This document shows, one piece after another, positions 7,343 to 31,472 of a stretch of DNA of 37,518 bases. The stretch comes from Lawsonibacter sp. (lineage in GTDB: Bacteria > Bacillota > Clostridia > Oscillospirales > Oscillospiraceae). The translations under genes and the position numbers were made by a program. Position 1 is the stretch's first letter, and every line of letters starts with the position of its first letter. The stretch is from the NCBI GenBank assembly GCA_022796195.1, contig JAAWIE010000014.1:1-37518 (forward strand), in the 5' to 3' direction. The notes under the pieces are model-generated. The model had not been told where the DNA came from, made no database searches, and was given only the letters and a program-made list of their open reading frames with translations.

Positions 7343-8740
7343 TTACATCTGGTTCACCACCCCGATAAACAAAGGGATATTTTCGCTGCGGATGACGAAC
7401 AGGAAGGGCCGGTTCAGGTCCATCACACAAATTTCCGGATTGATTGGAGCACTGAGGCATCTCTCCATCAACATCGTAACGGCGGCCGCCTCCACCCCTT
7501 CCTCGTCCACCTTCACCCGGGCCAGCTGCACAGCGTCGGACAAATATGCACTCAGATTGGTCAGGGCGGAAAGGTCGGCCTTGTCCGGGTCCTGCAGATC
7601 GGTAATGCCCAATTCCTTCAGCATCTCCAGCAAGTTCAGCTGGGAGTCCACATCGAACTTAGGCACCGACCACTGCACTTCGCCTATCCGGCGATCCTCT
7701 CCGTTCAGGTCCAGGCGGCTCAAAAATTCCGGGTCCTCCAGCAGCGATTCGGGGGTAATCCCCTCGTCGGGCAGAACAAAGACCATCTCCCCCAGATGGG
7801 TGGACAGCGCCGCAGCCTGATACCTCTCCCGGCGCAGGAATTTAGCGGTGCTCCGGTTGGCGTGCATAAAGTCCACCCGGCTCTCCTGTCCGGCGGCGTC
7901 AGTAAAGGTACCCTCTTCCGTCCCTTCGGGCGCAAATTCCTCCAACCACCCCGCCCGGTAGTACAGGGAGGAGGCCAGCAGAGCCAGCACATCCCCTGCC
8001 GTCTCCACAATGGGGCTGTCTCCACCAATCAGGCCGTTGGTCTGCTCCTTCGCCCAGTCGGTAATGGCTTGGTCCGCTTCAGCGGTCCCCATAGGGACGG
8101 TGTAAGTTCCGGCGTAGTGCTTCTGAGCCAGCGTGTCCAGCGTCTCCTGGACATACTCGCTCTCCTTGGCATTGTTGAGCCAGATGGAGTTTGCAAGGAT
8201 CAGGGAATTTTGTCCATCATCGGTATACAGCGTGTTCCATATGTGCTCCACCAGCTCCGGAAGGCCGTCCATGCTGTCCACACCGAGGGCGTCCAACACC
8301 TGTTGGCGGCTGTTCCCATTGGCGCACTGGGCCTCCATCGCCAGCGCGGACCACAGGGACAGCGGCGAAAAGACGGTATTCTCTCCCTCCCGGTCCGCCA
8401 GGGCCAAGGGGATGCTCTTGGCCGCAAAGCCATTCAAAAGGTTTCTCTCCGCCTCTTCCAGTCCGCTTCCCGCCCCACGGAGCGCGTCAAGCGTGTCCAG
8501 ATACTTGTTATAGGCGTCGTGATAGGCGTTCCATTCCTTCAAGCCATCCCCCTCCGGCGCCGCAGGCCGCTTGGGAAAATCCGGATAGACCGGCTCTGAC
8601 AGTACGCGGCTTGTCTGGGCTGGCATTCCTTCACCCCCCTTGTTCTGCCCTTCCAGTGTGGACAATCCGGCTCCGCTTGGACCTCCACAACCAGTCAGCA
8701 CCAGTACTCCGGCCAGCATGATAGCAAATATTCGTTTCAT
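7343..8740 (-). CDS. serpin-family protease inhibitor, predicted lipoprotein
   Basis: 465 residues from ATG 8740; the ATG six bases upstream is too close to the AAAGGAG. A signal peptide ends in the lipobox LTGC (Cys18), so the protein should be lipid-anchored outside the membrane. After a charged linker (about 20-110) comes a full serpin domain. The C-terminal third shows the hinge EEGVEAAAVT (consensus of inhibitory serpins is EEGTEAAAAT) before the reactive loop, then the terminal LNRPFLFVIR and IPLFIGVVNQ strands. Small hinge residues suggest an inhibitory serpin that traps serine or cysteine proteases, perhaps host or competitor enzymes in the gut. It stands alone, divergent from the recombinase gene. 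The protease target cannot be read from the loop. Confidence 0.93.
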   Translation of the reverse strand: MKRIFAIMLAGVLVLTGCGGPSGAGLSTLEGQNKGGEGMPAQTSRVLSEPVYPDFPKRPAAPEGDGLKEWNAYHDAYNKYLDTLDALRGAGSGLEEAERNLLNGFAAKSIPLALADREGENTVFSPLSLWSALAMEAQCANGNSRQQVLDALGVDSMDGLPELVEHIWNTLYTDDGQNSLILANSIWLNNAKESEYVQETLDTLAQKHYAGTYTVPMGTAEADQAITDWAKEQTNGLIGGDSPIVETAGDVLALLASSLYYRAGWLEEFAPEGTEEGTFTDAAGQESRVDFMHANRSTAKFLRRERYQAAALSTHLGEMVFVLPDEGITPESLLEDPEFLSRLDLNGEDRRIGEVQWSVPKFDVDSQLNLLEMLKELGITDLQDPDKADLSALTNLSAYLSDAVQLARVKVDEEGVEAAAVTMLMERCLSAPINPEICVMDLNRPFLFVIRSENIPLFIGVVNQM

Positions 8741-8912
8741 CCTCATTCTCCTTTCTATTTGCTTCTACTGGTATAGACGTATGATATCAAAAAAAGTTTC
8801 AGAAAAAAGATTTTTCCCGGCCCGCCGGCACAAACAGGCCGTGTGTCATGGACCTTCTTTTGGTAAAGTATAGGGTGGAAACTACTCGTATTTTACAAAA
8901 GGAGGTCAAAAT

Positions 8913-11830: not shown

Positions 11831-13318
11831 TTATGCCTTGTCAGCCTTGCCCTCGGTCTTTGCTGCTGCTTTTGCAGGGGCGGCAGGCTTAGGCGCCTCC
11901 ACACCCTTTGCGGTGCTGACCGCCTGAACCACGCCGCGGCCCTCAGCCTCTTTGGCGTGCTTCTCAACATCCAGCTTATTTCTGGGACTCCGAATCAGAC
12001 AGCCGGCGCCCTGGACGCAGCCGCCGTCGCAAGCCATACCCTCGATAAAGTTGCCCTCCAAACGGCCCAATTTCAACTTCATCAGAGCCGCCTCACAGGC
12101 TGCGGTGCCGCTGCACGGGACAGCCTTCAGGTCAAAATTAGCATTCTTTTCCTTCAAGGTCTGGGCAACGGCCTCTGCTACGCCGCCGCTGCGGGCGAAG
12201 TTGCGGCCATAGCCGCTGGCCTCGTCCAGAGAAGCAGCCTCCAACTTCTCCAGGTCGATGTCCCGGGACTGGAACAGGGCAAACAGTTCCTCATAAGTCA
12301 GCACGCAGTCGATGGCATTCATGGTGCGGCCCAGCTGGAATTCCTTCTTTTTCGCCACACAGGGGCCGATAAAGACCACCTTGGCGTCGGGCTCCTTCTC
12401 CTTCAGATGCAGGCCAATCATGACCATGGGGGAGGGCGTATGAGAGACATACTGGTTCAGCTCCGGATGCTTCTTCTTCACATAGCCCACAAAGCCGGGA
12501 CAGCAGGAGGAGGTGAGTACCCCTTTCTCTACCAGCTCGTCCGACTCCCGGTCAGCCACCATATCCGCGCCCAGCGCCACCTCGGCCACGCCGGAGAAGC
12601 CCAGCTGTTTGATACCAGCTACGACCTGGCCGTAGCTTGCGGGGGCAAACTGGCCGGCAATAGAGGGCGCGATGACCGCATAGGTCTTGTAACCCCAGTG
12701 GGCTCCGCCCTGGATCATCTGAATTGCGTCCACAATCCAGGACTTGTCCTGAATGGCGCCGAAGGGACACTGATACACACAGTTGCCGCAGGAGATACAC
12801 TCGTTGATATCAATGGACGCCTTCTTATTCGGCCCCATAGAGATGGCCTTGGCGGGACAGCCTTTTTCGCAGGGCCTCTGGTTCTTCACAATGGCGCTGT
12901 ACTGGCAGGCGCTGACGCACTTGCCGCAGGTAATACACTTGCTGTGGTCAATGCTGGCCCGGTGGTTGACGATGGTGATGGCGTCCTTGGGGCAGGCGTG
13001 GACACATCGGGTTGCCAGACAGCCCCGGCAGGAGTCGCCCACCGTCATCTCGGTAACCGGGCACTCGTCGCAGGCGATGGGCAGAACCTCAACCACGCTG
13101 GGATTGGTCTTGTCGCCGCCCATAGCCATCTTTACGCGGCTGTTGATGATGGCGCGTTCCTTATAGATGCAGCAGCGCAGGCTGGCCTCAGGGCCGGGGA
13201 TGATCTTCTCAGGTACGTCCAGAATACCGGTCTGGAGCCGGTCCTCCCAGGTCAGCCGGGCCACCTCGGTGAGAACAGAGGTTTTCAACTCCTGAATTTT
13301 TGTCTCAAACGTGTGCAT
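11831..13318 (-). CDS. monomeric [FeFe] hydrogenase, group B-type
   Basis: 495 residues from ATG 13318 (GGAGAGG about 8 bases upstream; an earlier in-frame ATG at 13360 lacks such a site). Ferredoxin-like part: Cys97/100/105/109, then two classical 4Fe-4S motifs at Cys128/131/134/138 and Cys174/177/180/184, with an extra Cys pair at 150/154. The H-cluster domain shows L1 TSSCCPGF (Cys272/273), L2 GPCVAKKKE (Cys320) and L3 MACDGGCVQGAG (Cys430, Cys434), the variant signature of group B enzymes rather than the MACPGGC of bidirectional group A. An Ala/Lys/Pro-rich tail covers about 475-495. It probably evolves or senses H2 in fermentation with ferredoxin. No maturase or partner subunit is nearby; it has its own promoter and terminator. 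Confidence 0.92.
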   Translation of the reverse strand: MHTFETKIQELKTSVLTEVARLTWEDRLQTGILDVPEKIIPGPEASLRCCIYKERAIINSRVKMAMGGDKTNPSVVEVLPIACDECPVTEMTVGDSCRGCLATRCVHACPKDAITIVNHRASIDHSKCITCGKCVSACQYSAIVKNQRPCEKGCPAKAISMGPNKKASIDINECISCGNCVYQCPFGAIQDKSWIVDAIQMIQGGAHWGYKTYAVIAPSIAGQFAPASYGQVVAGIKQLGFSGVAEVALGADMVADRESDELVEKGVLTSSCCPGFVGYVKKKHPELNQYVSHTPSPMVMIGLHLKEKEPDAKVVFIGPCVAKKKEFQLGRTMNAIDCVLTYEELFALFQSRDIDLEKLEAASLDEASGYGRNFARSGGVAEAVAQTLKEKNANFDLKAVPCSGTAACEAALMKLKLGRLEGNFIEGMACDGGCVQGAGCLIRSPRNKLDVEKHAKEAEGRGVVQAVSTAKGVEAPKPAAPAKAAAKTEGKADKA

Positions 13319-13426
13319 ATGTTCCTCTCCTTCCAAGTATGTCAGGTTTTCATGCGGCAAAAGGGGATTCTTGCAATTTTTGGCAGTTCACCCTGCATTT
13401 TGCAGGATTTCCTTCATATCCATAAC

Positions 13427-13578: not shown

Positions 13579-16203
13579 TCACTTTTTCTTCGTGATTTTT
13601 GCTGTGTACTTCAAGTTCCGCTGTCCCATATCCCGCCGGTTCAGCTTGGACACCAGCGCGGAGATCTCCCCTTGGGCCTGCTCAATTTCTACCTTGAAGG
13701 AGCGGGCGGACAGGCGAAGGGCTCCGTGTCCCAGGATAATAAGCTGTTCCAACCCATCGGAGGTGGCTACCCTGACCCGGTGATTTCTGCCCAAATCGTA
13801 AGTGGCTTTCTCAATGTAAGCGTCCGCTGTCTCGGCCTCTTTGGTGTAAACCACATAAATGTTGTTCTTTTTCTCCACGGAACCGGGGCTGCCCTTCACC
13901 TTGTAGGCGTCAAACACTAAAATTACGATGCACCTGCGGTACCCCTGATAGTTGGACAAAATGTCCTCCAGCGCCGCCCGGGCCGCAGCTACGTCCTGCT
14001 TTGCCAGTTCCTTCAGCTCGTCCCAAGCAAAGATGATGTTGTAGCCGTCCACCAGCAGATATTCCGGGCCGCTGTACTGTTCCCGGATGTTGTACTTCCC
14101 TTCGTCCAAGCTGGTACGGGCAGGCTTCTTCTGGGGTTGAAAGGCTGTCTCACGCTCCACCTTGCCGTAGGTTCGCTCAAAGACGGCAAGCAGCTCCTTG
14201 TCCTGCTCCAAACTGCCCCCCCGGCAGGTCCGCTCCCCGCCCGAGGGGGTGGATGGTTCCGGGACGGGCGGTTTTTCCTCCAGACGCAGGCCGCTGTCCA
14301 CGTGCATATGGTCTTTGACTTCGTGCCACTTTACCGTCACCCCCGCCCCGTGGGAACAGAAGACAGAGTCCGGCGTATTTTCCAAGTCCCGCTCTGGGTC
14401 GTAGGCAAATTGAGCCACAACCGCCTCTTGATTGGCGCAGGGCTCATATCCCCGGAGGGAACAGGACAGCCGCCCTCGGCCCCGGGTATAGGCGGTCACC
14501 TCCCGCCAGTAATCCCGCAGTCCGGCCACCGGGGCATGTCCGGTGAGAAGGGACAGCTCCCCTTCCGGTTCCGGCCCCTCCACCGCCCCGCCCATGGTCT
14601 GCAAATCGTTCATAGCCCGTCCCACACAGTCGTGGGGCAGCTCCAGCTGAAAGTCGTAGTGGGGCTCTAGTAAAATACTCTCCGCCTGCATCAGGCCCTG
14701 GCGCACCGCCCGATAGGTGGCCTGCCGGAAGTCGCCCCCCTCAGTGTGCTTCACATGGGCGCGGCCAGCCGCCAGCGTGATTTTCAGGTCGGTGATGGGG
14801 GAACCGGTAAGCACACCCCGGTGCCGCTTCTCCATCAGGTGGGTAAAAATAAGTCGCTGCCAATTCAGGTCCAACTGATCGGTGGGACATACGGAAGCCA
14901 ACCGCAGCCCGCTCCCCCGTGGACCGGGCTCCAGCAGGAGGTGAACCTCGGCGTAGTGGCGCAGAGGCTCAAAGTGGCCCATCCCCTCCACAACGTTGGC
15001 GATGGTCTCTCGATAGACAATGCTCCCCGCGCCGAAGGACACCTCGGCTCCGAACCGCTCCTGGATCAACCGGGTCAGCACCTCCAGCTGGACTTCCCCC
15101 ATAAGCTGGAGGTGGATTTCTCCCAGCGCCTCATTCCAGACCACCCGAAGCTGGGGGTCCTCCTCCTCCAACTGCCGGAGATTCTTTAAAAAAGCGTGGA
15201 CGTCGCAGGCGGGGGGCAGAATCACCTGATAGGTGAGTACCGGCTCCAGCTCCGGGTCCAGAGCGGGCGCTTCCGCCCCAAAACCGTCTCCAGGCCGGGT
15301 TCGGGTCAGTCCGGTGAGCGCACATACCGCCCCAGCGGAAACCTCGTCCATGGTCTGGTACTTGGTTCCGGAGTAGACGCGGATTTGGTTTACTTTCTCC
15401 TGCCAGCCCTCCCCCTCCAGCACCGTGCGCACCTTGAGAGAGCCTCCGGTCACTTTTAGATAGGTAAGGCGGTCGGTCCCATCCCGTGCGATTTTAAACA
15501 CCCGGGCGGCAAACTCCGGCGGATAGGCAGGGGGCTGGGCGTATCGAGCCAAGCCGTCCAGCAGCTCTTCCACCCCCTCCAGCTTCAGGGCCGAACCGAA
15601 AAAGCAGGGAAATATCTCCCTTCGGGCGGTCAGAGCGGCAATATCCCCCTCGGTAATCTCTCCTCCCTCCAGATACCGGTCCATCAATTCTTCGTCACAG
15701 GAGGCCAAATCCTCCTGAAGGGACTCCGGTCCGGCACTGAAGTCCAGACAGCCGCTGTCAAATTTGCTCTGCAACTGGCCCAAAAGAGCGTCATGGTCAC
15801 TGCCCGCCAGATCCATTTTGTTCACAAACAGAAAGACGGGGATTTTATGCCGGGCCAGCAGCTGCCACAGAGTCCGGGTGTGCCCCTGAATCCCGTCTGA
15901 ACCGCTGACCACCAACACCGCGCAGTCCAGCACTTGCAGTGTACGCTCCATCTCCGCCGAGAAGTCCACATGTCCCGGGGTATCCAGCAAGGTAAATGCG
16001 GTTTCTCCCCAAACCAGCTCCGCCTGTTTTGAAAAAATGGTAATGCCGCGCTCCCGCTCCTGCGTGTCGGTGTCCAGAAAGGCGTCCCGATGGTCCACCC
16101 GGCCCAGCCTGCGCACGGTTCCGCTGAGGTATAACAGCCCCTCTGACAAGGTTGTCTTACCCGCGTCTACGTGGGCCAAAATTCCAATCACCAGCTTTTT
16201 CAT
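13579..16203 (-). CDS. Tet(M)/EF-G-like translational GTPase fused to C-terminal YacP/Rae1-type NYN endoribonuclease domain
   Basis: 874 residues against about 640 for Tet(M). The GTPase part has G1 AHVDAGKTT (10-18), RGIT (52-55), DTPGH (74-78), NKMD (128-131) and EF-G domains II-V to about 640. After a 70-residue linker containing ELLAVFERTYG, residues about 715-860 form a YacP/Rae1-like NYN domain: LLVDGYNIIFAWDELK (Asp719), ILVFDAYKV (Asp765), the TKEAETADAYIEK acidic site (Asp794) and RVRVATSD...GHGALRLSAR. Rae1 of Bacillus subtilis is known to cut mRNA in the ribosomal A site, where EF-G/Tet(M)-type factors bind, so the fusion may deliver a nuclease to the A site. The domain IV tip reads HVKHTEGGDFRQ where Tet(M)/Tet(O) carry Tyr-Ser-Pro, so tetracycline release is doubtful. 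It has its own promoter. Confidence 0.9.
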   Translation of the reverse strand: MKKLVIGILAHVDAGKTTLSEGLLYLSGTVRRLGRVDHRDAFLDTDTQERERGITIFSKQAELVWGETAFTLLDTPGHVDFSAEMERTLQVLDCAVLVVSGSDGIQGHTRTLWQLLARHKIPVFLFVNKMDLAGSDHDALLGQLQSKFDSGCLDFSAGPESLQEDLASCDEELMDRYLEGGEITEGDIAALTARREIFPCFFGSALKLEGVEELLDGLARYAQPPAYPPEFAARVFKIARDGTDRLTYLKVTGGSLKVRTVLEGEGWQEKVNQIRVYSGTKYQTMDEVSAGAVCALTGLTRTRPGDGFGAEAPALDPELEPVLTYQVILPPACDVHAFLKNLRQLEEEDPQLRVVWNEALGEIHLQLMGEVQLEVLTRLIQERFGAEVSFGAGSIVYRETIANVVEGMGHFEPLRHYAEVHLLLEPGPRGSGLRLASVCPTDQLDLNWQRLIFTHLMEKRHRGVLTGSPITDLKITLAAGRAHVKHTEGGDFRQATYRAVRQGLMQAESILLEPHYDFQLELPHDCVGRAMNDLQTMGGAVEGPEPEGELSLLTGHAPVAGLRDYWREVTAYTRGRGRLSCSLRGYEPCANQEAVVAQFAYDPERDLENTPDSVFCSHGAGVTVKWHEVKDHMHVDSGLRLEEKPPVPEPSTPSGGERTCRGGSLEQDKELLAVFERTYGKVERETAFQPQKKPARTSLDEGKYNIREQYSGPEYLLVDGYNIIFAWDELKELAKQDVAAARAALEDILSNYQGYRRCIVILVFDAYKVKGSPGSVEKKNNIYVVYTKEAETADAYIEKATYDLGRNHRVRVATSDGLEQLIILGHGALRLSARSFKVEIEQAQGEISALVSKLNRRDMGQRNLKYTAKITKKK

Positions 16204-16235: not shown

Positions 16236-16265
16236 AGGATACATGTTCACGGCCCCTTCTGTCAA
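16236..16265 (-). promoter_or_regulatory. promoter of the GTPase-NYN fusion gene
   Basis: Minus strand: TTGACA (16265-16260), 18-base spacer, TATCCT (16241-16236), leaving a leader of only about 25 bases. There is no room for the leader-peptide attenuator typical of tet(M) genes. Confidence 0.55.
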
Positions 16266-29684: not shown

Positions 29685-31472
29685 TCAATCCGGCTGAACC
29701 ATGTGGTAGAGATTCATAATGGTAGCGACGCTCTGCTCACGGGTATAAGTATCCTGGGGGGCAAAGCGTCCGCTGCCCACACCGCTCATGATTCCTGCAC
29801 CCTGCACCCGGCCTACCGCGTCCAGGGCCCAGCCGCCGATGTCGCCGGCGTCGGAAAAACTGGCGGAGGATGCAGGCAGTGGGGAACCGATGGCCCTGGC
29901 AAGATTGGTAAGGATCAGCGCGGCCTGTTCCCGGTTGAGCGGGTCGTTGGGGGCAAACAGCTCCGAACTGATGCCGCTGACAATGTTCAGATAGGCGGCT
30001 TTTCCCACGTTGGGGTCGGCGGTATCGAAGAAGGAGACCCGGCCCTGCACCTCAGTCCAAGTGTAACTCTCATAAAACTGGACCGCCAGCGCACAGAACT
30101 CCGCCCGGGTGATGGCCTCGCGATAATTCCTCCGCAGCGGGACCGGAAGGAAGCGGTTGGCGATGGCTTCATCCACAGCGGATTTGGCCCACTGGGACGG
30201 ACTGCTGTCCGCAGGCTGGGCGGTAACGGATGCACGGCCATCCAGGCCCTCCATCACCTGAATGGGGAAGGCCGAAAACCGGGGGACATAGTTTCCGTAA
30301 AACAGATTCTCCCCGTTGCCCAGCTGGCCGCTGACGTTGCCGCCCCAGGTCCAGAGGGTGCCATCGGTACGGCGGGCCAGAACGTGGTCCCAGCCCACAG
30401 CAATCTGTTCCACCTGGTTCAGTACTGGAACGGGATGAAGGCGGTCCTCTGTTGTGCCGTCGCCGATATCGCCGTAGCTGTTATTGCCCCAGGCCCAGAG
30501 AGTGCCGTCTTTCCGGAGGGCATAGGTATTATTGTTGGAGGCATGGACCGAAACCACCTGGTCCAGCACCTGAACCGGGATGGAGTGGTCCCGGCTGGCC
30601 CATTCCCCCCACTTGTCAATCCATGCAGCCAGGGTCTCCTGAAGAAGGGCGTTCTCCTCTGAGTCGGGGGAGTTCCACTCCCAGTTGGGCCCCCAAGTCC
30701 AGGTGGTGCCGTCGCCCAGCTCCCCCTGCCAGTTGCGGCCCCAGGTCCAGAGGGTGCCGTCCGTCTTGACTGCGGCGCTGAATCCGTAGCCCGCGCTCAT
30801 GCAGGCCACATTGTCCATCACCTTGACTGGGGAGACCCGCTCGCGGCCCGAACCGTCGCCAATCTCGCCTTCGTTGTTCTGGCCCCAGGCCCACAGAGAG
30901 CCGTCCTTTTTCAGCGCCATGCTGTGGCCAAAGCCGGTACAGGCGGCGGTCACGTTGTCCATAATCTGCTGGGGCGTGCTGACCTGCTTGTTGGTCTTGT
31001 TGCCGATGTACTTGCCCCACGCCCAGAGGGTGCCGTCCGTCTTCACCGCCAAATGGGTCACCACCCCCGTGCTGACCGACGCCACATCGTCCATAATTTT
31101 GATAGGGGTGGGGCTGTTCACCAGATCGTCCATGCCGGGAAAGGCGTTGCTCACGTTGCGGCCCCACGCCCAGAGGGTGTTATCCTCCAGCACCGCATAG
31201 GTGTGGCCCTCCCCCGCGCTCACCGACCGGACATTCTCCAGCACCTTCACCGGACGGGTGTGGTCCTCCGTCCCGCCGTCCCCCAGCTGGCCCCACAGGT
31301 TGTCCCCCCAGGCCCAGAGCGTCCCGTTTCCGTCCACGGCAAAACTCTCCGCCGCGCCGCCGCTCATGGTGCGCTCCACCCCGGGCGCCGCGCTGTCGTA
31401 GGCGGCTGCGGAAAGAGGGGTTAATGTCAATGCCGCCAGCAGCACGGCGGCAGCGGCAGTTTTGATTTTCAT
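29685..31472 (-). CDS. secreted RCC1-repeat protein with C-terminal SLH domains
   Basis: 595 residues. Signal peptide (1-24, ending TPLSAAA), then seven RCC1-type beta-propeller blades (about 40-400), each with GTLWAWG...GQLGDG-like cores and VxSVSAGxxHTYAV strands. The fifth blade is followed by an insertion (WTWGPNWEWNSPDSEENALLQETLAAWIDKW). About 415-595 holds two to three SLH modules (AITRAEFCALAVQFYE; FAPNDPLNREQAALILTNLA; FAPQDTYTREQSVATIMN). A propeller displayed on the cell wall is the picture; the ligand is unknown. AAGGAGG precedes the ATG. It lies 83 bases after the AraC gene on the same strand. Confidence 0.92.
   Translation of the reverse strand: MKIKTAAAAVLLAALTLTPLSAAAYDSAAPGVERTMSGGAAESFAVDGNGTLWAWGDNLWGQLGDGGTEDHTRPVKVLENVRSVSAGEGHTYAVLEDNTLWAWGRNVSNAFPGMDDLVNSPTPIKIMDDVASVSTGVVTHLAVKTDGTLWAWGKYIGNKTNKQVSTPQQIMDNVTAACTGFGHSMALKKDGSLWAWGQNNEGEIGDGSGRERVSPVKVMDNVACMSAGYGFSAAVKTDGTLWTWGRNWQGELGDGTTWTWGPNWEWNSPDSEENALLQETLAAWIDKWGEWASRDHSIPVQVLDQVVSVHASNNNTYALRKDGTLWAWGNNSYGDIGDGTTEDRLHPVPVLNQVEQIAVGWDHVLARRTDGTLWTWGGNVSGQLGNGENLFYGNYVPRFSAFPIQVMEGLDGRASVTAQPADSSPSQWAKSAVDEAIANRFLPVPLRRNYREAITRAEFCALAVQFYESYTWTEVQGRVSFFDTADPNVGKAAYLNIVSGISSELFAPNDPLNREQAALILTNLARAIGSPLPASSASFSDAGDIGGWALDAVGRVQGAGIMSGVGSGRFAPQDTYTREQSVATIMNLYHMVQPD

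Follow-up and report, generated by a model that had tools for sequence, protein, structure and literature searches.

A translational GTPase fused to a Rae1/YacP-type nuclease is common in gut Clostridia and apparently stands in place of free Rae1

EF-G and Tet proteins bind the factor site of the ribosome. In the available excerpts of PMC4342817, GTPases of the EF2 family are described as acting by prompting some other molecule to leave its place on the ribosome, and Tet proteins as using their domain IV loops to displace the drug. Rae1 of Bacillus subtilis is described, likewise in excerpts, as an endonuclease that cleaves mRNA in the A site and depends on translation to do so (PMC6613710, PMC10100781, PMC12320835), and PMC12320835 counts it among the bacterial enzymes known to cleave mRNA on the ribosome. 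The two families meet in Atkinson 2015 (PMC4342817), the available text of which reports that the Tet proteins of ten Clostridiales species acquired a YacP-like NYN domain and suggests RNase-based resistance. The fusion architecture has therefore been in print since 2015; in the open-licence literature we found no account of the breadth of the fusion, of its exclusion of free Rae1 or of the emptied operon slot, and no experiment. What is documented here is the apparent replacement of free Rae1 by the fusion.

We analysed a 37,518-nucleotide stretch of Lawsonibacter sp. DNA (the window), whose minus strand carries an intact frame of 874 residues with an ATG start at 13579..16203. A sequence-only reading had taken this frame for a GTPase joined to an NYN nuclease; the frame, Pfam and the relatives described below confirm a fusion of a translational GTPase with a Rae1/YacP-type NYN domain and supply the strand, which that reading left unstated. 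The G domain (residues 1–226, 15526..16203; all features given here are on the minus strand) bears the AHVDAGKTT P-loop and the DTPGH, NKMD and SAL motifs and matches GTP_EFTU at residues 4–223 (E = 1.3e-51). EF-G domains II–V follow at residues 231–592 (14428..15513), delimited by Pfam and alignment (EF-G_D2 231–308, EFG_III 321–391, EFG_IV 394–507, EFG_C 511–592), and all features of the EF-G/EF2 family are present, namely domains G, II, III, IV and V with the P-loop, DTPGH and NKxD. Loop III of domain IV reads HVKHTEGGDFR in the alignment. Domain V is followed by a cap (residues 593–634, 14302..14427; SVFCSHGAGVTVKW), delimited by conservation and alignment, that is common to unfused relatives and not present in the aligned Tet and EF-G rows. 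A linker (residues 635–712, 14068..14301) leads to the NYN_YacP/Rae1 nuclease (residues 714–874, 13582..14064), which ends in a C-terminal helix and matches NYN_YacP at residues 716–860 (E = 3.9e-47, 160.7 bits against a cut-off of 24.6); the Pfam search that the sequence-only reading had proposed thus recovered NYN_YacP along with EF-G_D2, EFG_III and EFG_IV.

AlphaFold2, run on a 64-row alignment, predicts two folded blocks joined by a low-confidence tether (mean pLDDT 83.6, pTM 0.60). The tether is the linker, which in this model is probably disordered: pLDDT falls below 50 at residues 643–665 and 680–709, with a conserved helix at 666–679. As the pTM is modest, the relative placement of the GTPase and NYN blocks is not predicted. 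The named factors among the best 50 Foldseek rows are EF-G, EF-2 and mitochondrial kin.

The NYN half is homologous to B. subtilis YacP/Rae1 (PDB 5mq8, E = 6e-25), and D719, D765, D794 and D816 align with Asp7, 53, 81 and 104 of 5mq8 (numbering counted on the alignment). From the NYN fold, we take these four residues to be the active site; the acidic residues picked out beforehand from the letters (D719, D765, D794 and the T814-S815-D816 run) were correctly placed. Degeneration of these residues across homologues was looked for in an alignment of the window with 63 of the 80 best loci from the genome scan described below (17 were omitted for contig ends or unsettled starts, and the start is also unsettled in 13 of the 63), where D719, D765 and D794 are kept in 64 of 64 rows and D816 in 63. 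Domain IV and the NYN domain are the best-conserved parts of the protein in these 64 rows, with mean identities to the window of 78% and 71%, against 32% for the linker and 27% for the tail. The helix region of the linker is a conserved stretch (L671 in 64/64, E670 in 61/64, I or V674 in 64/64, G680 in 63/64). Pfam and alignment agree with the earlier proposal that one polypeptide, distinct from separate Rae1, holds a GTPase and a Rae1-type nuclease, both intact.

Upstream of the start lies a candidate sigma-70-like promoter (TTGACA-18-TATCCT, 16236..16265, minus strand), recognized purely by its match to the consensus, and an Rfam scan of the window gave no match at gathering scores. Around 119 copies of the gene, a simple ORF caller followed by clustering found no conserved neighbour gene and no operon partner or pathway; the largest neighbour cluster, which contains the ABC-transporter ATPase of the window, occurs in 8 loci and the next in 6. 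Elsewhere on the minus strand the window encodes a protein with an iron-only hydrogenase large-subunit domain and several 4Fe-4S domains (11831–13360, downstream of the fusion), a serpin-family protease inhibitor (7343–8746, E = 1.9e-57) and an RCC1-repeat propeller protein with S-layer homology domains (29685–31472).

The fusion is real, common and conserved in many gut Clostridia. A scan of GTDB genomes with the C-terminal half returned at least 596 relatives among at least 598 pattern matches, Intestinimonas and Pseudoflavonifractor among them, and the best 80 of these relatives all match through the NYN half. From 40 loci fetched, we dropped one with a 100-base filler region (L065) and one with a split gene (L056); 38 of 39 loci picked for long NYN-bearing frames carry the same full-length fusion, 48–62% identical to that of the window. 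In a draw of 291 genomes from the class of the window, taken to be Clostridia from the names of relatives in the scan, an NYN_YacP match was found in 189 (102 without), and in its order in 43 of 147 (104 without), so the function is dispensable in the genomes that have no match. All but one of the 43 NYN-bearing genomes of the order have a long frame, the exception being a short frame of 160 aa (G386). A draw of 249 genomes from the phylum gave 18 with a match to the protein at E ≤ 1e-120, sixteen of them with fusion-length and two with GTPase-length frames. Fusion-length frames also occur in single-contig genomes (G152, G222 and G278), and the assembly of the window itself has one NYN match.

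Several individual copies differ in state or in the kind of record that holds them. In the 39th locus, L056 (genome G221), an in-frame stop splits the fused gene into frames of 288 and 618 residues. Two records filed as plasmids hold the fused gene, one of 251 kb from Agathobacter rectalis (L103, 7974–10775) and one of 518 kb from Monoglobus (L105, 6001–8589), and one of these two copies is labelled as TetM/TetW/TetO/TetS resistance. Most or all of the fused gene is also found, unannotated, in two gut records named 'Bacteriophage sp.' (L102, MT835563.1, 5418–8021; and MT835514.1, 15276–17762); the matches cover 96% of the query, and these may be host contigs within a phage collection.

Where the fusion occurs, it apparently stands in place of a separate Rae1. 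The sequence-only reading had suggested surveying fused genomes for a missing yacP, and among the matches listed for the class (the best 150 by score) this absence holds: of 149 genomes, 88 have a fused frame, 56 a short one, five a frame of intermediate length and none both, a count uncorrected for kinship of the genomes. Frame length, not a per-frame domain search, defines these classes (at least 700 aa for fused, at most 220 aa for free), and the 40 weakest-matching of the 189 genomes were unclassed. Also unclassed are the five frames of 221–699 aa, found in G180 (running off a contig end), G221 (the split L056), G215, G051 and G139; G224, counted among the 56 short frames, is cut off by the end of its locus and is possibly a truncated fusion. 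More than one NYN match occurs in only four of the 189 genomes: in three, all of one genus, the second match is partial and below the family cut-off, and the fourth (G133) has two long frames.

The gene order around free rae1 points the same way. Seven of nine genomes with free Rae1 have the gene flanked by rlmB and sigH, six of the seven also having an RNase III-domain-type gene before rlmB; in the remaining two it lies about 3 kb from rlmB (G179) or on another contig (G110). All 13 fused genomes checked, the window's own included, have rlmB with no adjoining rae1, and in four of them (G136, G021, G097 and G279) sigH directly follows rlmB, leaving the rae1 slot empty. Five sigH frames scored 396–406 (three frames), 210.6 and 206.1 against NCBIfam NF006148 (cut-off 208), and Pfam confirmed the RNase III domain in the three tested and one free NYN domain. 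We read this arrangement as rae1 having left its operon slot beside rlmB in fused genomes; given both the exclusion in the listed genomes and the emptied rlmB–sigH slot, the fusion appears to have replaced Rae1. A tree of NYN domains almost separates fused from free rows, with a weak deep split (72) and two rows, L046 and L017, on the opposite side. L017 is a free NYN domain in genome G243 that is 61% identical to that of the window and falls among the fused rows; the same genome carries an unfused GTPase (L078) elsewhere, and the pair is possibly the product of a fission.

The GTPase half belongs to a clade of its own. A tree built from 78 rows by a short search, with SH-aLRT as the sole support measure and a program warning on long branches to EF-G, places 42 fused and 13 unfused rows together in a clade (support 100) and 11 resistance-type rows in a separate one (87). 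Within the first clade, all 42 fused rows group with one unfused Ligilactobacillus row (99), a pattern consistent with a single fusion that was lost once afterwards. In the aligned rows, members of the whole clade have HT.GGDFR at the core of domain IV loop III, and their cap follows the pattern S..C..G......W. The fusion scores 289.9 bits against the EF-G model TIGR00484, below its cut-off of 659.4, and the genome of the window has another, EF-G-like match at C7. One unfused member, L104 on a megaplasmid of Ligilactobacillus salivarius (NZ_CP117984.1, 4402–6920), is divergent to rpsN (S14) and a 'putative metal homeostasis protein', neighbours that hint at a metal-starvation response.

From its parts and its distribution, the protein is probably the Rae1 of its host delivered by a translational GTPase of its own, acting as a ribosome-targeted, GTPase-assisted A-site mRNA endonuclease, which may let it cleave mRNAs on stuck ribosomes. 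In its GTP form the GTPase half would dock at the factor site when the A site of the ribosome is either open or obstructed, and domain IV, through its HVKHTEGGDFR loop, would probe the decoding centre. GTP hydrolysis would move or release the GTPase half, whereupon the nuclease, on its flexible linker of about 80 residues, could enter the A site or reach the entry-side mRNA and cut. A docked Rae1 would occupy the A site that domain IV would also need, so on steric grounds the halves are expected to work one after the other and not at once. The truncated mRNA would be handed to tmRNA–SmpB. smpB was found in 11 of 11 genomes, the window's own included (G000:C160:944-1369), and tmRNA in 10 of 10 relatives; in the assembly of the window no tmRNA scored above threshold, with sub-threshold short matches only, perhaps because smpB there lies near a contig end. 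A tighter coupling is possible, and we put it forward tentatively: a GTP-licensed A-site endonuclease, in which an EF-G-like motor would test the stalled ribosome, clear the A site and hydrolyse GTP, the tethered Rae1 cutting only then, and which would have displaced free Rae1 over much of Clostridia. Such a protein would do in one chain, in bacteria, what no-go decay does in other organisms with a separate motor and cutter.

Alternatively the tether could be loose, the GTPase being a separate housekeeping or stress translation factor with which Rae1 rides along at ribosomes, its GTP hydrolysis uncoupled from cleavage. Unfused clade GTPases occur in 10 of 55 genomes with free Rae1 and in 2 of 15 genomes without an NYN match, so the GTPase can exist without Rae1; these proportions show no association of the unfused GTPase with free Rae1, and the two, when separate, do not track each other, which argues against a strict partnership. 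The length, variability and low confidence of the linker, and the GTPase-only Ligilactobacillus member inside the fused clade, are also what uncoupled halves would lead one to expect. The conserved residues of the linker helix and the want of any listed genome with both fused and free Rae1 speak for coupling, although both are still compatible with a loose tether. We regard this alternative as considerably less likely, and keep to delivery of Rae1 by the GTPase as the preferred reading.

That the protein is instead a ribosomal protection protein against tetracycline or another drug, with an RNase added, is the proposal of Atkinson 2015 (PMC4342817, available excerpts), and NCBI indeed labels some clade members TetM/TetW/TetO/TetS; in the GTPase tree the clade lies next to the resistance proteins, and two fused copies sit on the plasmid-filed records described above. 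Against the resistance model NF012153 (cut-off 775), however, the fusion scores 405.9 bits, as a clostridial EF-G control does (404.9), with two Tet(M)/(W)-type controls passing the curated cut-off at 880.5 and 852.6 bits. Five unfused clade members score 380–450 bits on this model; L084 and L085, which group with a tetB(P)-like gene and fall in the resistance-type clade, reach 606 and 557. In the aligned rows, loop III of Tet(M/O/W/36) reads YYSPVSTPADFR and EF-G has another loop, both without the cap; because drug release by Tet proteins is ascribed to their domain IV loops and the fusion has a different loop, we place little weight on tetracycline protection. The distribution is also broad and mostly single-copy, with only 2 of 1,389 matching plasmid records covering at least 80% of the protein. 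Tet(M)-type membership was accordingly rejected on the model score, the separate clade and the missing YYSPVSTPADFR loop. Of the earlier description of a Tet(M)/EF-G-like GTPase, the intact five-domain EF-G-type enzyme stands and the Tet(M) assignment falls; the suggestion that the protein recognizes drug-bound ribosomes finds no support. We consider a drug-protection function unlikely. This has a bearing on resistome counts, since the resistance label TetM/TetW/TetO/TetS is probably wrong for some of the genes that carry it in Clostridia and Ligilactobacillus.

More improbable still is that the nuclease targets rRNA or tRNA, in maturation or in ribosome inactivation, and not mRNA. PMC4342817 cites, in its available text, a role in rRNA/tRNA maturation for YacP-like NYN domains, and free rae1 adjoins rlmB, of a 23S methyltransferase family, often with the RNase III-domain gene; yet the NYN half of the fusion is a typical YacP domain and carries the acidic residues of Rae1, and B. 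subtilis Rae1 is described in the excerpts cited above as a translation-dependent mRNA cutter. An artefact joining two genes by misassembly or frameshift is refuted: the assembly of the window is fragmented (197 contigs, 7.88% contamination), but no such fault, which the sequence-only reading had said to look for at the linker, was found, 38 of 39 loci being full length, the best 80 all reaching the NYN domain and 88 of the 149 listed genomes having fusion-length frames, single-contig genomes included.

A GTPase fusion in place of free Rae1 would offer a possible recruitment factor already joined to its nuclease, and its relation to the known systems can be set out part by part. With Rae1/YacP of B. 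subtilis (PDB 5mq8 and 5mq9) it shares the NYN_YacP domain and the four aligned acidic residues. Rae1 of B. subtilis is, by the available descriptions, a free small protein co-transcribed with yacO/rlmB, whereas the window has it as the C-terminal portion of a GTPase fusion of 874 residues, away from rlmB. EF-G shares domains G, II, III, IV and V and the GTPase motifs and provides the best Foldseek matches, at 26–29% identity and with other domain IV loops, and the fusion adds the cap, linker and nuclease. Tet(M), Tet(O) and Tet(W) share the five-domain EF-G-like GTPase at about 30% identity, and differ from the fusion in model score, tree position, domain IV loop III and C-terminal cap. Closer are the unfused proteins annotated as 'translation factor GTPase family protein' (for example, L104), members of the same clade with 40–53% identity, the HT.GGDFR core and a similar cap, which at 639–724 aa lack the linker and nuclease. 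The clostridial Tet–NYN proteins of Atkinson 2015 have the same architecture, as compared by their description in the available text, and the protein of the window evidently belongs with them; that text files the fusions in the Tet subfamily, whereas the GTPase half described here forms its own clade and scores below the resistance cut-off.
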